Below, piece by piece: positions 3,145-37,793 of a stretch of DNA of 64,000 nucleotides. Both the position numbers and the translations under genes were made by a program. The stretch is taken from the NCBI RefSeq assembly GCF_022662015.1, contig NZ_JAKMCM010000002.1, positions 62,001-126,000 on the forward strand, read 5' to 3'. Under the pieces are notes generated by a model. That model had not been told where the DNA came from and made no database searches. It worked only from the letters and a program-made list of their open reading frames with translations. The stretch's first letter is position 1; each line of letters starts with the position of its first letter. The stretch comes from Aestuariivivens sediminicola (GTDB lineage Bacteria; Bacteroidota; Bacteroidia; Flavobacteriales; Flavobacteriaceae).

Positions 3145-4911
3145 ATGTTGAAGAAAGGATTTTTTTATGGACTTCTGATTCTTCTGGGCTTATTGTTTTA
3201 TTTCTATCGCAACTTTGAAACCATTTCGGCAGGAGTGGCCATTCTTCTTTTTGGAATGATCATGTTGGAAGAAGGTTTTCGGGTATTTACCAAGGGGCCG
3301 CTTCAAACCATTTTACAGTCGGCCACCAATAAGCTCTATAAAAGTGTCTTCACAGGTGCTTTTGTGACTGCTTTAATTCAGTCCAGTTCTCTGGTTTCGG
3401 TTATTACCATATCGTTTATCAGTGCAGGGCTTATATCCTTAACCGGAGGTTTAGGGTTGATTTTTGGAGCAAACATAGGCACTACTGCCACCGCGTGGTT
3501 GGTGGCTGGGTTCGGTTTAAAGGTCAAGATTTCTGCCCTGGCCTTACCTATGCTCGTATTTGGGCTAATTTTTTCCTTTCAAAAGAAAATGACGCTTAAA
3601 GGTATCGGTAATGTATTGGCCGGATTGGGTTTTTTCTTTCTTGGTATTCATTATATGAAAGAGGGGTTCGATGTGTTTAAGGAGCATATCGATCTCACAC
3701 AATATGCGGTTACGGGATTTCTGGGGGTTTTTATTTACACGGGACTGGGTATTGTTGTGACAACTATTTTACAATCAAGCAGTGCTACCCTGGCCCTTAT
3801 TTTAACCGCCTTATCCGTGGGTCAGATAGAATACGAAAACGCTCTGGCCCTCGCCATTGGAGCCAATGTCGGTACGACTATTACGGCGGCACTTGGTGCC
3901 ATTAGTGCGAACAGTGCCGGAAAACGACTGGCCATGGCCCATTTCATTTTTAATATGGTGACAGGCTTGGTGGCCATCGTCTTTATTTTTCCATTGGCTA
4001 ACCTGGTCAATACCACCTCTGATGTATTGCATATCGCAGCTACCAATTACACCTTAAAATTGGCTCTTTTCCACACCATTTTTAATGCTATAGGCGTCCT
4101 GTTGATGGTGCCCTTTATAAGACCTTTAGAACGTTTGCTTTTGCGCTTTTTTATTGAAAAGGAAAAGGATGTTCACGAACCGAAATACCTCAATCCGGCC
4201 GTATTGGAATTCCCTGGAGCAGTCCTGTCTGCACTAATTAATGAATCGAAATACCTGTACCAGAACAGCGTCTTTGAAATTGTAACTCATGCTTTAAATA
4301 TCCATAGGACGGATGTGAAATCGGATGAAAAGCTTAAAACCATTATTGAGAAATCAAAAACGGATTTCCATACCGATGTTGAGGATCTGTATTATACCAA
4401 GGTAAAATCCATTTACAGTCAGATCATCACCTACGCCACGACGGCACAAAGCACTTTAAAATTAAATAACAGGCAGAACAGGGCCATCACGGATATAAAG
4501 ATTGCAAACCGAAAAATGGTAGAAATCATTAAGGATGCCCGCGAACTGAACAAGAATATCACCATAGCCTTAAGTGCGAACAATACCCATTTGACAGCGG
4601 CCTACGATAGTTACAGGAAAAAGCTGGTCAAGGTTTTGCGAGTGATCTATTTGTTCAGGAAGGAAGAAAATTCAGAAGTTTACGAGGCAAAGCTTAAAAA
4701 GCTGAAGGCGGAAGCTAAGTCTAATATGAGGCAAAGCAGTCATTCCATTGACAAACTGATAAGGAAAAACGCAATTACCCCGGAGATGGCGTCCTCATTG
4801 TTTAATGACTACACCAACGTAAACGATATGATAAAGAAGTTGATCGAAGTGGCCGAATTGTTATACGGTAAGAAGGATACACTTTTGGATGAAAATGGCA
4901 ATGGAAAGTGA
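3145..4911 (+). CDS. Na+/phosphate symporter family protein with C-terminal PhoU-like domain
   Basis: The 588-residue inner-membrane protein has the two inverted Na/Pi-cotransporter repeats of the NptA/SLC34 family. Each repeat carries the QSSS signature (Gln79 in QSSSLVSVITISF; Gln210 in QSSSATLALILTA), followed by GANIGTT and GANVGTT. About nine hydrophobic segments fill residues 5-330. The remaining 240 residues are soluble, helical and charged, like the PhoU-type domain fused to many bacterial members. Predicted role: sodium-driven uptake of inorganic phosphate. It converges on the PiT transporter gene. No 11-bp repeat array of the kind seen farther along this region is present upstream, so it may be controlled separately. 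Confidence 0.88.
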   Translation: MLKKGFFYGLLILLGLLFYFYRNFETISAGVAILLFGMIMLEEGFRVFTKGPLQTILQSATNKLYKSVFTGAFVTALIQSSSLVSVITISFISAGLISLTGGLGLIFGANIGTTATAWLVAGFGLKVKISALALPMLVFGLIFSFQKKMTLKGIGNVLAGLGFFFLGIHYMKEGFDVFKEHIDLTQYAVTGFLGVFIYTGLGIVVTTILQSSSATLALILTALSVGQIEYENALALAIGANVGTTITAALGAISANSAGKRLAMAHFIFNMVTGLVAIVFIFPLANLVNTTSDVLHIAATNYTLKLALFHTIFNAIGVLLMVPFIRPLERLLLRFFIEKEKDVHEPKYLNPAVLEFPGAVLSALINESKYLYQNSVFEIVTHALNIHRTDVKSDEKLKTIIEKSKTDFHTDVEDLYYTKVKSIYSQIITYATTAQSTLKLNNRQNRAITDIKIANRKMVEIIKDARELNKNITIALSANNTHLTAAYDSYRKKLVKVLRVIYLFRKEENSEVYEAKLKKLKAEAKSNMRQSSHSIDKLIRKNAITPEMASSLFNDYTNVNDMIKKLIEVAELLYGKKDTLLDENGNGK

Positions 4912-5072: not shown

Positions 5073-7391
5073 TTATTCCTCCTCTTCCTCCGTACTTAAC
5101 TTGGCAGGTTCCACGGAAGCATCATGCGCGTTATGGTATTCCTCTAAAAGATTCATAGTAGCCGTGAGCAAATCTTTAGTCTCTAACAATAACCCAAAAT
5201 AAAGAGTCGTATTTTTAGGACTGGATTCCTCAGTTCGCGTGCGCTCAACCTGTTTATGTATTTTTTCAGATACGATCTTAAAGATGGCTTTTTCACTTTT
5301 TAGAATAGCTCCTATCTGTTCAAATGAGCGGGAATCAAATGCCTCTTTAATCTCAACAAGAAGATTTTCCATTGAATGGTCTACTTCTTTCAGTTCCTTA
5401 ATTTGATTGAACTTTAGTTTTTTATGATTGTTGTTGACATGTTTATGACTCGCTTTGGATATATATTCTAAAGATTGCGTCATATCCTGTAAATAGCCTA
5501 AAATGTTGATGTAAAAATTGCTGGCCCCAACACTGGACTCGTCTAAATTTTTAATAAAATAAAAGATGTTGTCCCTTAGGTTATCAACTTCTAAAGATAG
5601 TTTCTCTATTTGTTTTTTATTCTTTTTAAGCATTGCCAAATCTTGCCGAGCCAATCCATTGATGGCATTGGAATAGATTTTATTTCCTCGTTTTACCACG
5701 TTGGCAATATTATGGGTGCTTTCATGAATAACACCTTGAAGGGAACTGCTTTCAGCATTTTTCAGGCTGTCCTCACTTTTTGATACTGATTTATTTTTAT
5801 GAGATAAATAGTTTCTCACTAATAAAATTACCGTCAACAATAAAAGTACCGGAGTCATCACAGCGGGATGCCAGTTTATCAAAAAGACAACAGTCCCAGC
5901 ACCAATAAATGCTGCAAAGGCAGTAAAAAACCAACCGCCAATCACATTTAAAACACCGGCAACGCGATAAACCGCACTTTCGCTGCCCCATGCGCGATCC
6001 GCCAGAGAGGTCCCCATAGCCACCATAAAGGTAACATAGGTCGTAGATAAGGGTAATTTCATGGTCGTCGCGATAGAAATTAATACACCTGCAACCATTA
6101 AATTTACAGATGCTCTGATCATATCGAATGCCGGGGCGTCAATACTTTGATCTTTCGTTAATAATAGTGCCGATTTCGGTTTTTCGAAACTCGCATTCAC
6201 TTTTTCCTGAGCAGATTTAGGTATAATAACCATTAAGGCGTTCGTGAATAGTGAGGTGCCTTTTACAATGCTGCGAGACAACAAATTCGGTTTAAATTTT
6301 TCATGAGTTTCACTCTGTCTGGATAAGCCAATTTCTGTTTCGGCAACAGTTTTAGCTTTTTTTGAAAACCATAAAGTAACAACCATAATACCCCCTGCAA
6401 TAAAAAGTAGAAATGGTTCAGCCGGCATTTTATTGCCAAGGACATCCATTGAGAATTCTGTTGCTGCAATTCCAGAAACAGACCATGCTTCATAAGAATG
6501 ATAAGCGGCCATGGGAACACCGATAAAATTTACTAAGTCGTTACCAGCAAAGGCTAAGGCTAATCCAAATGTTCCAACGGCAATTACAACCATTAGGACG
6601 TTCTTTTTTATGATGTTTTGATAAACAAATGAGAATAATGTAAATAGCACAAAACCAATAACAATAATGTAGGTCTCATTACCCTCAATATAGCCTTTCA
6701 GTTCATTATAATACGGGGTGCCTTTAAGGCCTTTCATAAAAATGAAATAAAGAATTGCTGTTAACGCCAATCCACCGAAAATGGCTCCAATATTCTTTAT
6801 CTTATCCGTATTATGAAAGGTGAATATTAATCTCGAAACCCATTGAACTATGGCTCCGACAGTAAATGCGATAACAACAGAAAGCAATATACCACTTATA
6901 ATTTCAAAAGCTTTTTTGGTGTTAATATAGCTGCTTAAATCTGCTAAAGTTTCAGTTTCAGATGCACCAATTTTTATGAGCGCCATCACCACAGCAGCTC
7001 CTAATAAATTGAATACGATGGATACCGTAGTTGAAGTTGGTAGACCTAACGTGTTGAAAAAGTCTAAAAGTAAAATATCAGTGATCATAACAGTCATGAA
7101 AATGAGCATTATTTCATGAAAGTTGAATTCAGCAGGAACAAAAATACCTTTTCGGGCAACTTCCATAAGACCACTGGAATATACGGCCCCAATAAAAATC
7201 CCTAAGCTGGCAACAATCATAATTGTTCTTAAGGAAATAGCCTTTGAACCGATAGCAGAGTTCAAAAAGTTTATGGCGTCATTACTTACACCAACAACAA
7301 TATCTGCAACTGCCAAAATTGTTAAGGCAATTAACATGTATAAATAAATATTATCCATTGAGTTTAATTGTAATACGTCTGCAAATATCAT
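5073..7391 (-). CDS. PiT-family inorganic phosphate transporter with C-terminal PhoU-like domain
   Basis: This 772-residue protein belongs to the PiT (PF01384) phosphate transporters. Both family signatures are visible: VGVSNDAINFLNSAIGSKA near residue 35 and AFAGNDLVNFIGVPM near residue 284. The membrane part (about residues 12-540) has a dozen hydrophobic segments. The last 230 residues are soluble and strongly helical (LSLEVDNLRDNIFYFIKNLDE), resembling PhoU/DUF47 regulators normally encoded as a separate gene. The protein therefore looks like a transporter-regulator fusion. It starts at the ATG 40 bp after the porin stop and is probably co-transcribed with the porin, moving phosphate across the inner membrane after the porin brings it into the periplasm. 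Confidence 0.92.
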   Translation of the reverse strand: MIFADVLQLNSMDNIYLYMLIALTILAVADIVVGVSNDAINFLNSAIGSKAISLRTIMIVASLGIFIGAVYSSGLMEVARKGIFVPAEFNFHEIMLIFMTVMITDILLLDFFNTLGLPTSTTVSIVFNLLGAAVVMALIKIGASETETLADLSSYINTKKAFEIISGILLSVVIAFTVGAIVQWVSRLIFTFHNTDKIKNIGAIFGGLALTAILYFIFMKGLKGTPYYNELKGYIEGNETYIIVIGFVLFTLFSFVYQNIIKKNVLMVVIAVGTFGLALAFAGNDLVNFIGVPMAAYHSYEAWSVSGIAATEFSMDVLGNKMPAEPFLLFIAGGIMVVTLWFSKKAKTVAETEIGLSRQSETHEKFKPNLLSRSIVKGTSLFTNALMVIIPKSAQEKVNASFEKPKSALLLTKDQSIDAPAFDMIRASVNLMVAGVLISIATTMKLPLSTTYVTFMVAMGTSLADRAWGSESAVYRVAGVLNVIGGWFFTAFAAFIGAGTVVFLINWHPAVMTPVLLLLTVILLVRNYLSHKNKSVSKSEDSLKNAESSSLQGVIHESTHNIANVVKRGNKIYSNAINGLARQDLAMLKKNKKQIEKLSLEVDNLRDNIFYFIKNLDESSVGASNFYINILGYLQDMTQSLEYISKASHKHVNNNHKKLKFNQIKELKEVDHSMENLLVEIKEAFDSRSFEQIGAILKSEKAIFKIVSEKIHKQVERTRTEESSPKNTTLYFGLLLETKDLLTATMNLLEEYHNAHDASVEPAKLSTEEEEE

Positions 7392-7430: not shown

Positions 7431-8642
7431 TTAGAAGTGTAAGTCAAAACCTAATCGAAAGGTGATATTATCTTCATTCCCGTCAAGGCTTGTATAACTT
7501 AAGTCAGACTGAACTTTAAGTTTGTGACCAACAATAAATTTATTGATGCCCAGGGTATACTGTCTTACCGGTAAGGCTCCAGTGATCGCTTCATAATTCA
7601 CAGATGTAAAACGACCGGCTATTTCGTAATTGCTTTCAAACATATAACCAGCCTGTAGATTCAGAGCATTACCTGTTAATACAATGTTCTCTTCTGGGGT
7701 GGGTGTAACACCATCCAATTCAGTCGCAACAGGTTCATCAGCCGTCCTTTTGGCGTATTCCCCCATAAAGGAAATGCCTTTATATTTAAACATGATATCG
7801 GCGAACAGTGTTGTAATGTCTGTTTCATATAAGGAACCGTCACTTCTTAACATATAATCGCCCGCAAAGCTGCGTTCTCTAACACCGTTTTGATTTAGGT
7901 TGTATGTAAATGCCGCCATGAGTTTGGGACTGGATTCTCTTTTAATGGCAGACTGAGTATAATCCCCTTTGGATTGAAAGGTGCCAAACGGTAATAACTC
8001 CAAACGCCCCGTATATTGTAATCCTCCTTCGTTGCCTTCCGTAACATTTCTCCCTTCTCCCTGAGAAAGAGAAAATTTCTCACGCATTAGGAACCGATCT
8101 CCTAACTGTGTTTTATGTCTTATTTGTATACCGATATCTCGGTCTATATTGAAACGGCGGTTTAATAAAGATCGATCAATTAACTGAAGATCTCCTGATG
8201 ATACCACGCGCTCCACGTTACCGGGTAATTTTGTTTGCCCGGCCCATAGTTCCCAATTGCCTGCAAAGTTCCACATAATAACGGCATCCAGAATATAACG
8301 CGGGGTATTTCTATTAAATTGACTTGCCCCGGAAATATCGCGATTGGAAAGCCCTAACTCTATCTTATATCTTAATTTTGGACTGTAGGCATACCCGTCA
8401 AATTTTAAACGGGCACGTCTAATAAGGATATTGTGCTCAGGACTGCCATATTTATCCCCATCATAGTCCCATGAGGAAACGGATCTCATTTGAAAACGGG
8501 GTGCGAATTTAATGCTGAATGAACTGTCCTTGGCTGTAAAGTTAATAAGCCCTTTGCCGAAAGATGTGTCACTGATTTCCTGAGCAAATAACGAGGTTAC
8601 GGTAAAAAGAAAGATACCAATGAGGGTATGTTTAGTATTCAT
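7431..8642 (-). CDS. Phosphate-selective porin O/P-like outer-membrane protein
   Basis: A signal peptide (MNTKHTLIGIFLFTVTSLFAQ) precedes about 380 residues of alternating beta-strand sequence ending in a C-terminal aromatic residue (FRLGFDLHF), as in OprO/OprP porins (PF07396). The family motif region FAPRFQMRSVSSWDYDGD, then RRARLKFDGYAYSPKLRYKIELGLSNRD, fits this assignment. I start at the ATG at 8642. An in-frame GTG at 8666 lies only 3 nt from the predicted -7 element and would fall at or before the transcript start. The gene is first in a two-gene unit with the PiT transporter and sits behind a three-unit Pho-box-like array. Predicted role: anion/phosphate entry through the outer membrane. 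Confidence 0.88.
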   Translation of the reverse strand: MNTKHTLIGIFLFTVTSLFAQEISDTSFGKGLINFTAKDSSFSIKFAPRFQMRSVSSWDYDGDKYGSPEHNILIRRARLKFDGYAYSPKLRYKIELGLSNRDISGASQFNRNTPRYILDAVIMWNFAGNWELWAGQTKLPGNVERVVSSGDLQLIDRSLLNRRFNIDRDIGIQIRHKTQLGDRFLMREKFSLSQGEGRNVTEGNEGGLQYTGRLELLPFGTFQSKGDYTQSAIKRESSPKLMAAFTYNLNQNGVRERSFAGDYMLRSDGSLYETDITTLFADIMFKYKGISFMGEYAKRTADEPVATELDGVTPTPEENIVLTGNALNLQAGYMFESNYEIAGRFTSVNYEAITGALPVRQYTLGINKFIVGHKLKVQSDLSYTSLDGNEDNITFRLGFDLHF

Positions 8643-8668: not shown

Positions 8669-8714
8669 CAAAGAACCTAAATCTATGTTAACTAAATGTT
8701 TCCTAATTGTTATA
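8669..8714 (-). promoter_or_regulatory. Pho-box-like array and -7 element of the porin-PiT operon
   Basis: On the minus strand the units TATAACA, GGAAACA and GTTAACA occupy + positions 8708-8714, 8697-8703 and 8686-8692, exactly 11 bp apart. Ten bases separate the last unit from TTCTTTG (8669-8675), a variant of the Bacteroidota TAnnTTTG -7 box. No TTG -33 element is seen, as expected where an activator replaces it. The predicted transcript starts near 8663, giving a leader of about 20 nt. Confidence 0.7.
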
Positions 8715-8723
8715 TTTAAGCAT

Positions 8724-8751
8724 AAAAAAGACTGCCCTGGTTAGGGCAGTC
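8724..8751 (-). terminator. Intrinsic terminator on the minus strand, with no protein gene behind it
   Basis: A perfect 9-bp GC-rich stem (8730-8738 with 8743-8751, loop GGTT) is followed on the minus strand by six T (8729-8724). The next minus-strand protein gene upstream already has its own terminator at 9367-9403. This one therefore ends some other transcript, see the candidate small RNA, or insulates the porin promoter. Confidence 0.75.
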
Positions 8752-8826
8752 TCATTAGGCATCATAATAATGTAGTCGACAAAAACTAATAGATTATATG
8801 ATATACTAATTGTCTGTCTATAGACC
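8724..8826 (-). ncRNA. Candidate small RNA under a Pho-box-like array
   Basis: A promoter-like array (8830-8886) and an intrinsic terminator (8724-8751) on the minus strand bracket about 100 nt that hold no convincing reading frame. The only ATG frame (20 codons) runs through the terminator hairpin. Start is set 4-6 nt after the -7-like ATATTTG. It could be a phosphate-regulated small RNA, or a leader of the porin mRNA that is terminated early. Not matched to any known RNA family. Confidence 0.4.
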
Positions 8827-8829
8827 TTA

Positions 8830-8886
8830 CAAATATCAATGTTACAGTTAATCTTAATGTAACGTCAACATTAAGTAATTATTAAT
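8830..8886 (-). promoter_or_regulatory. Pho-box-like array facing the candidate small RNA
   Basis: Minus-strand units ATTAATA, CTTAATG, CGTTACA and GATTAAC lie at + 8880, 8869, 8858 and 8847, each step 11 bp. As at the three protein-gene arrays, exactly 10 bp separate the last unit from a TTTG-ending -7-like element, here ATATTTG at 8830-8836. CGTTACA is identical to a unit in the array at 14284. The outer and innermost units are weaker matches. Confidence 0.5.
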
Positions 8887-8943
8887 ATTCCAATGTTAAA
8901 TCTCTATTTTAATCTTTTGAAAAACAGTATTTTGTATTTTCAA

Positions 8944-8998
8944 TGTTAATATAATGTTACGTGAATGTTGGTTTAATATTAAGTAAGTTGTATCTTTG
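8944..8998 (+). promoter_or_regulatory. Canonical promoter overlapped by three TGTTA repeats at 11-bp spacing
   Basis: The promoter TTG (8968-8970), 20-bp spacer, TATCTTTG (8991-8998) matches the Bacteroidota consensus fully and predicts a start near 9003, about 20 nt before the ATG at 9024. TGTTAAT, TGTTACG and TGTTGGT at 8944, 8955 and 8966, with a weaker TATTAAG at 8977, repeat at exactly 11 bp. The third overlaps the -33 TTG. Relative to transcription the units run opposite to those of the minus-strand genes (TGTTA rather than TAACA), so the effect could be repression rather than activation. Confidence 0.6.
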
Positions 8999-9023
8999 GA
9001 TTATAATGTTAAACCCCATAGTT

Positions 9024-9344
9024 ATGAAGAAATTATTTTTTTTAATTGCCTTTTTTATTACTGTGGTTGCTTTTGCTCAGGATAAGCAGAAGCGAGATTT
9101 AAAACTTAACACGGACACGAACCTAATTGAAGTTGTTTATTATCATGACAATGGTGAGGTAAGCCAGACAGGGTATTACACATTAGATGGTAAATTACAG
9201 GGGGAATGGTTGAGTTTCAATGAAAAAGGCGAAAAAACGGTTTCGGCAAATTATGATAATGGTAAAAAGGTCGGCAAATGGATCTATTGGATTGACGGCG
9301 AAAAAAAGGTTGTCAATTATACTGATAATGTAGCTTCCTTATAA
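9024..9344 (+). CDS. Small secreted MORN-like repeat protein
   Basis: This 106-residue protein has a signal peptide (MKKLFFLIAFFITVVAFAQ), then degenerate MORN/YwqK-type repeats of about 22 residues: YHDNGEVSQTGYYTLDGKLQGEWLSF, then NEKGEKTVSANYDNGKKVGKWIYW. The start at 9024 is chosen because earlier in-frame codons lie inside the promoter. Flavobacterial proteins of this kind are often misnamed 'nicotinic acid mononucleotide adenylyltransferase'; nothing here supports enzyme activity. Possible role is a periplasmic or surface binding module. Its setting among phosphate-uptake genes and the 11-bp repeat array over its promoter suggest control by phosphate supply. Function is unknown. Confidence 0.75.
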   Translation: MKKLFFLIAFFITVVAFAQDKQKRDLKLNTDTNLIEVVYYHDNGEVSQTGYYTLDGKLQGEWLSFNEKGEKTVSANYDNGKKVGKWIYWIDGEKKVVNYTDNVASL

Positions 9345-9366
9345 GCTTAACAAGGAAGATAAAATA

Positions 9367-9403
9367 AAAAAAGCATCCCGCCTGTGGCGGGATGCTTTTT
9401 TTT
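9367..9403. terminator. Bidirectional intrinsic terminator between convergent genes
   Basis: A perfect GC-rich stem (GCATCCCGCC, loop TGT, GGCGGGATGC) is flanked by an A-run on the left and a T-run on the right. It serves both the MORN-like gene (+) and the lipoprotein gene (-). Confidence 0.93.
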
Positions 9404-9425
9404 ACTTTATGGATTTTTATCTGTT

Positions 9426-10643
9426 TTAGTTACCTACGGTCCAACCTGCACCCCATGAGGCAAAATCAGTACCGGTTCCATTACCATCACCACTAATAAA
9501 ATCACTTTCATTGAAGGTTTCACCGGTGTCGTTCTTCATCTTTGTAATCACATCATTGAAGGTCACATTCGTCGCATCCAGGTCGCCGTTTATGACTCCG
9601 GTACCTGTGGGGTTATCGCTGGATGCTCCGGCATCACCATCAAGGTCAAATCCTTCCGCAAAACCTTCAATTAAAATATTATCGAATATTCCTTGTGTCC
9701 CTGCTCTTAATCTTATCGCCTCATTACCGGTTTCGGAACCCAAACCTACAATGGTAACGTCCTTTACTGTTGGCTTAGACCAGAATTTAGGGTTGGAAAG
9801 GTTTCCTATATCTGTATTATAGCCATCGCATTCAAATCCTTTGTCATGATCGGCACCATGCTTGACATACGCGTTGGTTATAGACCCTGTGAAACCTTCA
9901 GTCCAGTCGATAGAATCGTCCTGACAGTTGATGACTGCCACATGGTTTACCTTGACCGTTCCGCCAAAAAATTCAATGCCGTCATCAGCACCTTCATAGG
10001 CTTGAATATAATCTACGGTCGTTCCTGCGCCCACACCGTAAAATGAGATACCGTTATTTTCTGAAGAGCCATCGGCAGCCCCACCGGAATATTCAACACG
10101 CACATAGCGAATAACACCTGAACTGTCAGAGGCATCTGTGCCACCATATGGTAAGCTTCCAATTTCAGAAGTGGCTGTGGCGCTGCCCGTAACGGAGTTT
10201 ATAGGGGCTTTACCTAAAATAATTAACCCGCCCCATTGTCCGGCACTGGGGTTGGCATCTCCGGAGGTCATTACTATAGGATTGGAAGCCGTTCCATTAG
10301 CAATAATTTGTGCGCCCTGAGATATGGCGATATACACATCGGCACCGGTTGCAATGGCTTTAATGGTTACCCCTTCATTTATAATTAAATTCGCACCCTC
10401 TGCCATGATTACGGGTCCGGTAATGGTATAGGTGGTATTGGCCTCTAAAGTGATATCGGAAGAGTATTCGGCGGCACTGATCGGTATTTCGACCTCAGTT
10501 TCACCTCCCTCGCCACCACTGTTGTTGGTTGTGTTGTTTATAACACTGTTATCCGTGATGTAAATAGCTGCCGTATCGTCTGCTGCACACCCGTTGAAAA
10601 GTAAAGCAACAGTTGCAAATCCTAATAATAAATTAATTTTCAT
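9426..10643 (-). CDS. Beta-helix-like surface lipoprotein paired with a TonB receptor
   Basis: A 405-residue lipoprotein: the signal MKINLLLGFATVALLFNGC places the lipidated Cys at residue 19, followed by an Asn/Gly/Glu linker. The body is rich in short beta motifs typical of right-handed parallel helices (ANLIINEGVTIKAIATG, GGLIILGKAPIN, DYIQAYEGADDGIEFFGGTVKV, NAYVKHGADHDKGFECDGYN) with many Asp residues that could bind cations. It starts 43 bp after the TonB-receptor stop and is probably in the same operon. Such lipoprotein-receptor pairs recur in Flavobacteriia without an assigned substrate. By analogy with SusD-type partners it may deliver a ligand to the receptor; the shared Pho-box-like promoter suggests a phosphorus-bearing ligand. 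Inference only. Confidence 0.7.
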   Translation of the reverse strand: MKINLLLGFATVALLFNGCAADDTAAIYITDNSVINNTTNNSGGEGGETEVEIPISAAEYSSDITLEANTTYTITGPVIMAEGANLIINEGVTIKAIATGADVYIAISQGAQIIANGTASNPIVMTSGDANPSAGQWGGLIILGKAPINSVTGSATATSEIGSLPYGGTDASDSSGVIRYVRVEYSGGAADGSSENNGISFYGVGAGTTVDYIQAYEGADDGIEFFGGTVKVNHVAVINCQDDSIDWTEGFTGSITNAYVKHGADHDKGFECDGYNTDIGNLSNPKFWSKPTVKDVTIVGLGSETGNEAIRLRAGTQGIFDNILIEGFAEGFDLDGDAGASSDNPTGTGVINGDLDATNVTFNDVITKMKNDTGETFNESDFISGDGNGTGTDFASWGAGWTVGN

Positions 10644-10686
10644 TGTTTCTAAATTTAATTTTTATACGTTCTTTTTATGCAATGGT

Positions 10687-13530
10687 TTAAAATGAATATT
10701 TAAGTTGTAGACCCAGATTTATGCCCGAATTATAGTTTGAAACATCTTTTCCATTGGGAGACGTTACGATAATGTCTCCTTGATTGGTTTCTCTAATGTA
10801 TTTGACACTGGGATTTAGTAAATTCTTTGCGGCCAGGTTGATTTCCAAATGCGCGCCGATCTCATTTTTAAAGATAAAATCCAGTGTAGGGATCCCTTTT
10901 TCAATAACATTTCCCAATTGTCCGGAGCCCAGGGCATCTATACGATCAGAGAAATAAGAGAAAGACAAGGTGGCATTTGGTTTATAATGCTCAAATGATT
11001 TAGGTGAGAAGTTGACATCGGCGTTAACAATAAAAGGTGAGGCGCCTTGTAATGCCTCAGTAGCCTTGTTAAAACTCACGTTAAAATTACTTCCCACAAT
11101 AGCACTGTAGAGATCTTGCTCAGTATGCATATAGGTGGCATTAAGACCAAAGGAGAGAATCCCTTCATCGAATTCGTCAACCAGGATATTTTTTCGAATT
11201 TCTGCTTCAATACCCAAGATCTCAGCCTGATCTCCCGTTCTGAAGAAGCGTTGGGTACCCGTGGCATCAAAAGCCACTACCTGGTTAATTGGATCTTCTA
11301 TTTTCTTGTAAAAAACACCCAAAGCGATCAGTTCCGACTTAGTTACAAACCACTCATATTTAAAATCAAGATTCATTATTTTAGAGTAGGATACATCCTT
11401 TACATTGGTATAGGTTTCACCTGCTTTTCTCCCCAAAAGATCTGGATTACCACCAATGCGCTGTGAAACACTTTCGTAAACAAATGGAGCAACCTCCTTA
11501 AATTCGGGTAAGGATAGGGTTTGACTTGCCGAAAAGCGTAGGTTCTGATCGTCGTTAATGCTGTATTTAATACTTAAACTCGGTAAAAAAACACGTTCTG
11601 ATGCACTGATACTGTCTTTTCCATTAACCCCTAAATTGATCACATCATAGGCAATAAACTGGTCAAAGGATTCCACTCTTATCCCGGGAACAAAAAGCCA
11701 TTTTTCACCAAAATTCAGTTCGGCGTTCAGGTAACCCGCCTGTACATCCAATTGTCCCGTATAGGTGTTCTCAGGTAATCCGGGTCTGTTCGTGGTGCTG
11801 AGAGACGGAATAGGTCTGATAACCTTAATTTCGTAAACCCCCTCGTTACTTTTCAGGTTCAGATTTTCAAGCGTGAAAATGTCATTAAGAGCCTTGACGT
11901 TATCGATGCCACCGTTATCTGTGATATCATAACCATAACGTATATTGTCAAAATGGCGTTCTTTAGTTCTGCCATTATAACCTACATTTATTTTAATCTG
12001 ATCAGAAGGTTTGTAAGTAAGGTTTAAGCGCCCGTTTAACTCCTCATCTTCAATGTTCTGAAAATAGCGCTGATTATCAAAATCGACGTTGCTGTAAAAT
12101 ATGGGTTTGGTAGAAGGATTATTATCCAGTGCCAGATGATAGTTCTCAATACTAATGCGCTTTCTGTCAGGTTCATGTGCATTTACAAAGTTGTGTCCAA
12201 AGCCCCAATTCACTTCAATTTTGTCGAATTTGTGCACACCAATGAGTTGGTTTACATAAATTAAATTTTCATTGAATTGAATGTTTTGCTGATAGAAGCC
12301 TTCATCGGTATTGGCAATTGCATCGCGGTTTCTACCCATACCATCTATACCGAAGTACCCCACTTTGTCTGAGGAGCTATTTACAAACAGGGAATTGTAA
12401 GATAAGGTATTGTAATCGTCTATCCTGAAATTAATTGAAGCCATCCCTGTGGTGGTTGTGCCATATTCATATTCTTCAGCTTGTTCGAAAGCTTTCTTTT
12501 CTACATTCGTATAATCAATGGACGCCCCCTTCCTGTATTGAAAATCGTTTCCAAAAGATCCTGTACCATAAAAGCTGAGTTTCGAACCATTGTTAAACAT
12601 AAACGTTTTGCCAAAGGATCCCCCGAATTCCGTATTTATAGGAGACCCGGCACTTACAGGGTCGAAACCGTGTGATAAGATCACATTAAACGGATTGTGC
12701 TGATACCGATTATAAAATCCAAAATAGCCTGTACCTTCACTTCTTACAAAATCCTTTCCAATGGCATTGGTGTTAATCGACGACCCTGTAAACAGATCGA
12801 AGAAACCGATCCCCTTATAGTCTTTCGAAACAACGTCTACATTTCCTGCTGCAAAATCGCCGTAGAATCTTGAGGAATACGCTTTGCTAATACCAACACT
12901 TTCTATAACATCGGAAGCAAATAAATCCAGATCTATATTCTTTTTACTTACATCGTTCGATGGTAATGACAGTCCATTCATAGTGGTGTTCAGGTATCGG
13001 TCACCTAAACCCCTTACATAGACATTACTGCTTCCCTCCTGTTTTGAGACTCCCGATATTTTTGCCACGGCACCTGCGGCATCGCTCACACCCTTTCTCG
13101 AAAGTTCTTCTGCACCAATACTTTGTTTTATTTCAACCGCTTTCTTTTGTTCCAATAATAAGGCGGTTTCACTCTCGCGCCGTGTGGTCGTCGTGATCAC
13201 GACTTCATCCAGAGAGGCTGCACTGGCCCCCATGACGACATTGACCTCGATGACTTTACCCGCAACGATAGTCACATTTATTTCCTGTGTTTCATAACCC
13301 ACAAAACTATATATTAGTGTATAATCTCCAGGATCTAAATTTTCAAAAGTATAAAGACCGTCAAAGTCCGACGTGGTTCCTGTTGTTGTGCCTTTAATCA
13401 AAACGTTAGCGAATGCCAACGGTTCGTTATTAAACTCCTTATCCGTTAGTTTTCCGACAACGGATCCAGTGTTTTGAGCACCCGAAAATAAAACAGTTGA
13501 TAATATAAATAGTAATATAAATTGTCTCAT
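10687..13530 (-). CDS. TonB-dependent outer-membrane receptor with N-terminal carboxypeptidase-like domain
   Basis: The 947-residue protein begins MRQFILLFILSTVLFSGAQ (signal peptide), then a CarboxypepD_reg-like beta-sandwich (about residues 20-105), a plug domain (IKQSIGAEELSRKGVSDAAGAV, then NVYVRGLGDRYLNTTMNGLSLPS) and a long 22-strand barrel ending LGLQLKYSF. It is not SusC-type: it lacks the SusC signature and its partner is not SusD. I start at the ATG at 13530; the longer frame begins with TTG and is unlikely. TonB receptors actively import large or scarce ligands. The six-unit Pho-box-like array upstream and the neighbouring phosphate transporters point to a phosphorus compound, which is inference. 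Confidence 0.85.
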   Translation of the reverse strand: MRQFILLFILSTVLFSGAQNTGSVVGKLTDKEFNNEPLAFANVLIKGTTTGTTSDFDGLYTFENLDPGDYTLIYSFVGYETQEINVTIVAGKVIEVNVVMGASAASLDEVVITTTTRRESETALLLEQKKAVEIKQSIGAEELSRKGVSDAAGAVAKISGVSKQEGSSNVYVRGLGDRYLNTTMNGLSLPSNDVSKKNIDLDLFASDVIESVGISKAYSSRFYGDFAAGNVDVVSKDYKGIGFFDLFTGSSINTNAIGKDFVRSEGTGYFGFYNRYQHNPFNVILSHGFDPVSAGSPINTEFGGSFGKTFMFNNGSKLSFYGTGSFGNDFQYRKGASIDYTNVEKKAFEQAEEYEYGTTTTGMASINFRIDDYNTLSYNSLFVNSSSDKVGYFGIDGMGRNRDAIANTDEGFYQQNIQFNENLIYVNQLIGVHKFDKIEVNWGFGHNFVNAHEPDRKRISIENYHLALDNNPSTKPIFYSNVDFDNQRYFQNIEDEELNGRLNLTYKPSDQIKINVGYNGRTKERHFDNIRYGYDITDNGGIDNVKALNDIFTLENLNLKSNEGVYEIKVIRPIPSLSTTNRPGLPENTYTGQLDVQAGYLNAELNFGEKWLFVPGIRVESFDQFIAYDVINLGVNGKDSISASERVFLPSLSIKYSINDDQNLRFSASQTLSLPEFKEVAPFVYESVSQRIGGNPDLLGRKAGETYTNVKDVSYSKIMNLDFKYEWFVTKSELIALGVFYKKIEDPINQVVAFDATGTQRFFRTGDQAEILGIEAEIRKNILVDEFDEGILSFGLNATYMHTEQDLYSAIVGSNFNVSFNKATEALQGASPFIVNADVNFSPKSFEHYKPNATLSFSYFSDRIDALGSGQLGNVIEKGIPTLDFIFKNEIGAHLEINLAAKNLLNPSVKYIRETNQGDIIVTSPNGKDVSNYNSGINLGLQLKYSF

Positions 13531-13553
13531 TAGGTTCAATATCAATTCTGGGG

Positions 13554-13632
13554 CAAAGAAACTGCTGTTGTGTAAACCTAGTGTTACCTGCAGATTAAAG
13601 AACCGTAATAATAGTGTTAGCTAAACGTTACC
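13554..13632 (-). promoter_or_regulatory. Six-unit Pho-box-like array and -7 element of the TonB receptor operon
   Basis: Reading toward the gene, GGTAACG, GCTAACA, TATTACG, TTTAATC, GGTAACA and GTTTACA begin at + positions 13626, 13615, 13604, 13593, 13582 and 13571, every step exactly 11 bp. The last unit ends 10 bp before TTCTTTG (13554-13560). No -33 TTG is present. The predicted transcript has a leader of about 20 nt. Confidence 0.75.
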
Positions 13633-13822
13633 TTTTCTAATCATTCTAACCAGAAAAGATTACATTTAGTTAACATTAACACAGTGGGATATCAAAACCA
13701 TTGCTAAATCATGAAATTACCAAATAGAGACGGCTAAAGTTTCATGTCTTAAGGTGGAGACTTTTGAAGGTGTTAGAGTATGTAAATACGGAAAGGTGCC
13801 AACGAATATTCACCTAAGGACA

Positions 13823-14212
13823 TCAGGGGGTCAGCACGGCTTTAGACGCTGTTTCCGATGTCGCACTCGCTAAAGTTAGCGCTAAGTCATCCAGGGATAT
13901 GGTGCTGGCCTCTAAGGACAATTTTATTTCACTGTTTTTACCTGAAACAACATGAGTCTCGACTGCTTTAGTTTCATAGCCTACAAAACGAAACAGCAGG
14001 GTATAAGTGCCTTCATCGATATTCTCAAATTTAAAAAAGCCGCTTTCATCAGATACGGTTTCATCGCCTGTTTCCTTAACGGATACTTTGGCTAAAACCA
14101 GTGGCTCGTCAATCGAGCCGGAATCAGATAACACACCACTGATGGAACCCTTGTTCTGAGCAAAAGATAATGCTGAGATAAAAAACAGAAGGATGAATAA
14201 AAGTGGTTTCAT
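13823..14212 (-). CDS. Stand-alone secreted carboxypeptidase-like regulatory domain protein
   Basis: The 129-residue protein is a signal peptide (MKPLLFILLFFISALSFAQ) plus one CarboxypepD_reg-like domain, closely resembling the first 120 residues of the TonB receptor encoded just downstream (FENIDEGTYTLLFRFVGYET against FENLDPGDYTLIYSFVGYET). It stops where a receptor would continue into its plug, with SLDDLALTL in place of SLDEVVITT. It may be the remnant of a duplicated receptor, or a small functional protein of its own. It has its own six-unit array and -7 element, which argues that it is expressed. Specific function unknown. Confidence 0.7.
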   Translation of the reverse strand: MKPLLFILLFFISALSFAQNKGSISGVLSDSGSIDEPLVLAKVSVKETGDETVSDESGFFKFENIDEGTYTLLFRFVGYETKAVETHVVSGKNSEIKLSLEASTISLDDLALTLASATSETASKAVLTP

Positions 14213-14233
14213 GTGCTATGATAATTTCTGAGA

Positions 14234-14312
14234 CAAAGAACGTTCTTTCGTGTAACTTCTGTGTTAAGCGATCATTAAACATCTGTAACGAAAATGTTAC
14301 CGCAATGTTAAC
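14234..14312 (-). promoter_or_regulatory. Six-unit Pho-box-like array and -7 element
   Basis: Reading toward the gene, GTTAACA, GGTAACA, CGTTACA, TTTAATG, CTTAACA and AGTTACA begin at + 14306, 14295, 14284, 14273, 14262 and 14251, with exactly 11 bp per step. Ten bases separate the last unit from TTCTTTG (14234-14240). This is the clearest of the arrays and closely resembles E. coli Pho boxes such as CTTACAT. Confidence 0.75.
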
Positions 14313-37719: not shown

Positions 37720-37793
37720 AAAGTTTTACAATTATTTAACATATATTTTACCTGCAGATTATTTCATTCCCTTTTTTAATTTATTTTTAACCC

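Follow-up and report, generated by a model that had tools for sequence, protein, structure and literature searches.

Direct-repeat arrays with an 11-bp period at phosphate-gene promoters of Aestuariivivens sediminicola as probable Bacteroidota-type PHO boxes

Three promoters in a 64,000-nucleotide stretch of the Aestuariivivens sediminicola genome (the whole of which we call the window) carry arrays of seven-base units that follow one another at 11-bp steps and end at a fixed distance from the putative −7 element. Phase-locked arrays recur before orthologous genes in other genera; 11-bp arrays also lie beside phoB and occur at some pst loci within the phylum. It is very likely that the window arrays are PHO boxes of a Bacteroidota type, read by PhoB, and that the phosphate genes behind them are activated in starvation; we infer the binding, the direction of control here, and the contact with sigma. 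The proposed Bacteroidota PHO box has a known geometry with a different core (TWAC). Bacteroidota play an important part in the use of organic phosphorus, and in Flavobacterium johnsoniae the genes of phosphate starvation differ from those of Escherichia coli (PMC8115612, available part). The PhoB system itself is already known in Bacteroides fragilis, and what this analysis adds is a candidate operator sequence for the phylum. If the reading is true, an operator with strict spacing would allow low-phosphate promoters in Bacteroidota to be predicted from sequence, and a phosphate-controlled promoter would become usable for these bacteria.

Pfam puts the window genes in or near phosphate uptake, with matches to a Na/Pi cotransporter, a PHO4/Pit transporter, Porin_O_P, a TonB-dependent receptor, and a short CarboxypepD-domain protein. 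The features, in window coordinates, are as follows:

3145..4911, plus strand, Na/Pi cotransporter (PF02690), a neighbour with no array assigned
5073..7391, minus strand, PHO4/Pit-type phosphate transporter (PF01384), downstream of the porin
7431..8642, minus strand, Porin_O_P, phosphate-selective porin family (PF07396, E 1.7e-10)
8669..8675, minus strand, TTCTTTG, presumed −7 element for the porin
8686..8714, minus strand, porin array of three units (GTTAACA, GGAAACA, TATAACA) at 11-bp steps, plus-strand starts 8686, 8697, and 8708
8933-8972, minus strand, weaker array (ACCAACA, CGTAACA, ATTAACA, AAATACA) between the porin and the divergent gene at 9024-9344
8991-8998, plus strand, TATCTTTG, −7 element of the divergent small-protein gene
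9024..9344, plus strand, small protein with a sub-threshold MORN-like match, divergent from the porin
9426..10643, minus strand, protein resembling a lipoprotein (by eye), encoded after the receptor at the position that FII (Fjoh_0546) holds in F. johnsoniae
10687..13530, minus strand, TonB-dependent receptor with a CarboxypepD-like N-terminal domain (PF00593, PF07715, PF13715)
13554..13560, minus strand, TTCTTTG, presumed −7 element for the receptor
13571..13632, minus strand, receptor array of six units, starts 13571, 13582, 13593, 13604, 13615, and 13626
13823..14212, minus strand, short protein with a signal peptide (by eye) and one CarboxypepD-like domain (PF13715)
14234..14240, minus strand, TTCTTTG, presumed −7 element for the short protein
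14251..14312, minus strand, short-protein array of six units, starts 14251, 14262, 14273, 14284, 14295, and 14306

The short gap between the porin and the PHO4/Pit transporter suggests that the two form an operon. The receptor is related to the one that lies beside phoB in Flavobacterium (38% identity over 974 columns with the F. anhuiense receptor), and the lipoprotein-like protein, for which a Pfam search returned zero matches, shares 41% identity across 357 columns with the positionally equivalent F. anhuiense gene. The short protein resembles the N-termini of two Flavobacterium receptors (33-37% identity); it is a stand-alone CarboxypepD domain like the N-terminal domain of the receptor, with a six-unit array of its own. 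Comparable short CarboxypepD genes precede receptors in three other genomes (G115, G048, and G121) or adjoin a Pit transporter (L124).

The first-pass annotation of this DNA described three, six, and six seven-base units upstream of the porin, the receptor, and the short protein, and its coordinates are exact. Read directly from those coordinates, every step from unit to unit is 11 bp and the gap from the last unit to TTCTTTG is 10 bp at all three promoters, just as had been described. The repeat is present, but its description as a unit near GTTAACA needs correction, in that several units (TTTAATC, TATTACG, TTTAATG) fit that sequence badly and the constant core is TWAC. We dropped one further argument, by which the absence of a TTG at −33 was a sign of an activator; this absence is uninformative and weighs little (F. 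johnsoniae, PMC7366714, available part). As for PHO box geometry, the window arrays consist of two or more 11-nt direct repeats. They stand just before the core of the predicted promoters, with the 10-bp gap here and gaps to TTTG of 13, 24, or 35 nt in orthologues, and they precede phosphate-acquisition genes, namely, Porin_O_P with the Pit transporter and the receptor-FII pair.

Among known systems, the closest in sequence is the PhoP box of Bacillus subtilis, with TTAACA-like repeats at 11-bp steps, in a Gram-positive promoter context. The PHO box of E. coli sits before the −10 and replaces the −35. By definition, a PHO box consists of two 11-nt direct repeats, each with seven conserved and four less conserved bases, with the motif CTGTCAT in E. 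coli and GTTCACC in Streptomyces coelicolor (PMC4415409, available part). The window arrays share with E. coli the 11-nt direct repeats of 7 + 4 bases and, as presumed reader, an OmpR-family PhoB with the same recognition-helix pattern. Unlike the E. coli box, they have a TWAC core, run to as many as six units, and are locked to the TTTG of the Bacteroidota −7 element. With the PHO box of S. coelicolor PhoP, they share direct repeats in variable unit number (simple and complex operators in the same source), but the T-A/T-A-C core differs from GTTCACC, as does the promoter context. Within the phylum, PhoB of B. fragilis binds a 512-bp pstC promoter fragment in gel shifts; the available part of that paper defines no binding sequence, and the word "consensus" is absent from its main text (PMC3547664). 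PhoB goes unmentioned in the available main text of the promoter map of F. psychrophilum (PMC9723704), and in the open-access papers searched we found no Bacteroidota PHO box or defined binding sequence.

Under phosphate starvation, the sensor kinase PhoR would phosphorylate PhoB, which would then bind head to tail on the 11-bp direct repeats through their TWAC core. The −7 at the window promoters is poor, TTCTTTG retaining only the TTTG of TAnnTTTG. Since the nearest unit ends 10 bp before it, bound PhoB would sit where the housekeeping sigma factor would otherwise make its upstream contacts, and would recruit RNA polymerase. This would switch on the phosphate porin (and probably the Pit transporter gene that follows it), the receptor together with the FII-like lipoprotein, and the short CarboxypepD protein. 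The role given here to each unit is putative, as is activation.

Three full-length matches to the PhoB model are present in this genome, and a gene for a PhoR-like kinase comes after the best of them:

Contig C10, 622.3-624.1 kb (read as L099:8349-10075), phoB and phoR of this genome

This PhoB scores below two curated cut-offs (TIGR02154, 224.4 of 296.2; NF053854, 215.5 of 270), as does Flavobacterium PhoB (217.3 and 205.8), and those two families are its top-scoring ones among the matches listed. It is 79% identical to PhoB of Flavobacterium sp. SLB02 and of F. anhuiense. The recognition helix reads RTIDVHIRKLR here and RTVDVHIRRLR in E. coli PhoB. At the positions that we take to be the DNA-contacting residues of E. 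coli PhoB, the protein keeps R193, H198, R200, R203, and T217 and has K in place of R201 and R219.

In Flavobacterium sp. SLB02, F. anhuiense, and F. zhairuonense, an array lies in the gap between phoB and a divergent receptor gene. Two of these regions, read further, have an FII-like gene after the receptor and phoR after phoB, an arrangement that matches Fjoh_0543 to Fjoh_0546. Phosphate depletion in F. johnsoniae raises the receptor by 8.0 log2, FII by 9.9, and phoB by 3.1, and leaves OprP uninduced at −1.3; altogether, 95 transcripts of that species rise by more than 4 log2 (PMC8115612, available part). The phoB locus of A. sediminicola lacks the receptor pair, yet an array is present there (four units, P 0.003 with 300 shuffles), found in both directions with the stronger one pointing away from phoB. 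It lies at L099:10145-10184, in the gap upstream of phoB where Flavobacterium has the receptor pair, and this position suggests that the operator remained in place when the pair moved elsewhere. The Flavobacterium arrays beside phoB also point away from it (three-unit P ∼0.5 toward phoB), and we have slightly lowered our confidence in PhoB as the reader because of this orientation.

For the pst genes, a profile cut-off search found zero matches to pstC in this genome. Among 118 genomes of the phylum, 75 lay above the pstC cut-off, and we read the 30 pst loci listed. A forward three-unit run scoring at least 15 at step 11 occurs in nine of these and is missing from the other 21; at steps 8, 9, 10, 12, 13, and 14, the count is 0/30. 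On shuffles, 11/30 pass P 0.05, and one more pst locus (L252) has a run on the opposite strand only. Six of the nine arrays have a TTTG in reach, at 13 (L259), 13 and also 4 (L255), 23 (L238), 24 (L263), and 35 (L246 and L260); for the remaining three, our script listed zero TTTG. In 20 further pst loci from one other family (f15), the array was found in none. The sequence TGTTAC-N5-TGGAAC occurs at the pst promoter region in six of these 20 (L307, L312, L316, L318, L321, and L322) and is perhaps the PHO box of that other lineage.

A search for PhoX gave 10 loci from nine of 41 genomes, six of which (L296-L299, L304, and L305, with L296 and L305 being the same gene) were left out since their frames differ in size or kind; their three-unit scores reach up to 11.0. 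The other four are short PhoX-like genes of Flavobacterium with weak four-unit arrays (P 0.003, 0.007, 0.02, and 0.03; 0.03 to 0.23 when scored with two units), and these genes are related and hence non-independent. The first-pass annotation had proposed scanning a whole genome for the exact spacing at further Pho genes; in Flavobacterium, such searches showed no enrichment: The strict pattern with one mismatch gave 17 real against 45 reversed matches in three genomes, and a loose two-unit pattern gave 43 against 100 in five.

The inference of a PhoB-type regulator in that annotation gains independent support from the phosphate genes downstream, from conservation across genera, and from the arrays between phoB and the receptor in three Flavobacterium genomes, and further from the published induction of receptor and lipoprotein (PMC8115612, available part), the nine pst arrays of 30, and the retained recognition-helix pattern. 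An improbable alternative is that another OmpR-family regulator, for example, one of the RprY-type proteins, reads the arrays and that the phosphate genes are a secondary set. The OmpR-family PhoP of Mycobacterium tuberculosis recognizes 7-bp motifs with a 4-bp spacer, and thus the same period (PMC4832192, available part), and TTAAC-rich repeats lie near two RprY-type two-component operons (L108:10500-10545 and L109:6470-6530). Against this alternative stand the two RprY-type proteins themselves, which lack the His198, Arg200, and Thr217 that PhoB here keeps (one of them has Arg219, which PhoB here lacks), as well as the placement of the arrays, which are found next to phoB, at some of the pst loci, and before genes that respond to phosphate depletion. 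The TTAAC-rich repeats are possibly the own sites of the RprY-type regulators.

The matrix with which we scored arrays was derived from the same 15 units of the window, so that scores within the window are partly circular; there, three-unit runs score 25.4, 21.9, and 19.9 and six-unit runs 41.7 and 39.7, and the highest scores in 30 first-order Markov windows are 18.2 and 13.2, respectively. One more site in the window, at 37724 on the plus strand, scores 18.0 for three units. What serves as an independent test is whether other genera conserve the arrays, scored with the same matrix at fixed spacing. We took 30 receptor loci, the window's own and the 29 next best, each from a different genus, counted a three-unit run scoring at least 12 as a pass, and recorded its distance to TTTG. 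By this measure, 24/29 receptor orthologues pass, with a gap of 13 nt in 19 loci, 24 in one, and 35 in four. Five have no array by the script, and L077 is among them since its contig ends early; the strict-pattern search did find the array there. Of the 29 next-best porins, 20 are phase-locked (17 at 13 nt and three at 24), four have an array at other distances, and five have none. At the other distances listed, mean scores are negative. The −7 element is GTTCTTTG or GTTATTTG in 16/20 scored porin orthologues and TTTCTTTG in 17/20 scored receptor orthologues. In four further receptor loci, an array is about as far upstream of the receptor as the short-protein array is in the window.

These orthologue sets also bear on a very unlikely reading in which the promoters form an activator-free family whose A/T-rich repeats bend the DNA or feed upstream contacts of the polymerase. 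The units are indeed A/T rich and directly upstream of the −7 element. However, the TWAC core stays constant while other bases drift (T 96%; A 70% or T 21%; A 99%; C 81%, over 27 receptor loci with six units each, those 27 of 30 having been selected by an array score of at least 10). The period, moreover, is 11 only: 22/30 porin loci have a three-unit run scoring at least 15 at step 11 and 0/30 at steps 8, 9, 10, 12, 13, or 14. In the flanks of rpsB, used as a control and drawn nearly all from Flavobacterium or its family, 0/156 pass.

At the level of this genome (3.65 Mb), the signal sits in the best matches only. The pattern TWAC-N7-TWAC-N14-TTTG has six exact matches against two reversed, the two at window promoters being intergenic and the other four inside open frames; the porin promoter has one mismatch to the form used in the looser genome search. 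Genome-wide searches with two to three mismatches returned 169 real against 140 reversed matches and 84 against 102. Since loose patterns show no clear excess, the argument rests on strict matches and on the footprints in orthologues. Two strong array-like places (C16:92334 and C17:182302; L106 and L107) carry very similar TTACATTTGTGTTACAA repeats immediately in front of what, by eye, seem to be integrase genes, and were set aside.

Across 149 genomes of the family, the strict pattern TWAC-N7-TWAC-N11-TTCTTTG has 86 matches, spread over 75 genomes, against 16 reversed. Measured against partial lists of receptor and porin homologues, 42 of the 86 matches are no more than 300 bp upstream of a receptor homologue and eight no more than 300 bp upstream of a porin homologue; another 16 and five, respectively, lie within 5 kb, giving 50/86 within 300 bp and 71/86 within 5 kb upstream of either, with 15 elsewhere. 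Most of the 16 matches that are upstream of a receptor without adjoining it are ∼1.4 kb away, and in the three such loci that we read (L128, L130, and L136) the array stands before a gene 34-35% related to the window's 405-aa protein. Four of the 15 matches elsewhere were also read: At L111 the array precedes a choice-of-anchor I lipoprotein, at L124 it precedes a short CarboxypepD protein beside a Pit transporter, and at L132 and L133 a phosphate gene was not found at the locus. Chance repetition in A/T-rich intergenic DNA, in whose favor loose searches have reversed matches that equal or outnumber the real ones, is scarcely credible when 24 of 29 receptor orthologues, all from different genera, carry phase-locked arrays and strict matches number 86 to 16 reversed in 149 genomes.

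The weaker array at 8933-8972 overlies a TTG 20 nt before TATCTTTG, in the −33 region of the divergent small gene, and both repression of that gene and help to the porin from afar are possible roles. A broader and tentative picture, which we hold less probable than not by a clear distance, would make PhoB a head-to-tail filament over up to six 11-bp sites (∼66 bp), phase-locked by whole turns to a degenerate sigma-A promoter, with the reversed array over the −33 repressing 9024-9344 while the porin is on, and with this on/off grammar extending through the phylum. It is slightly weakened because the second array misses the promoter of the small gene in some loci. In the region from −500 to −200 of the porin, which was picked after earlier porin array results had been viewed, a three-unit run scoring at least 13 occurs in 16 of 19 loci with the small-gene neighbour and in one of 11 without it. 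The run begins 42-60 bp before the small gene in 12 of those 16 and farther off in four; at other steps, zero or one of the 30 loci pass in the same region.
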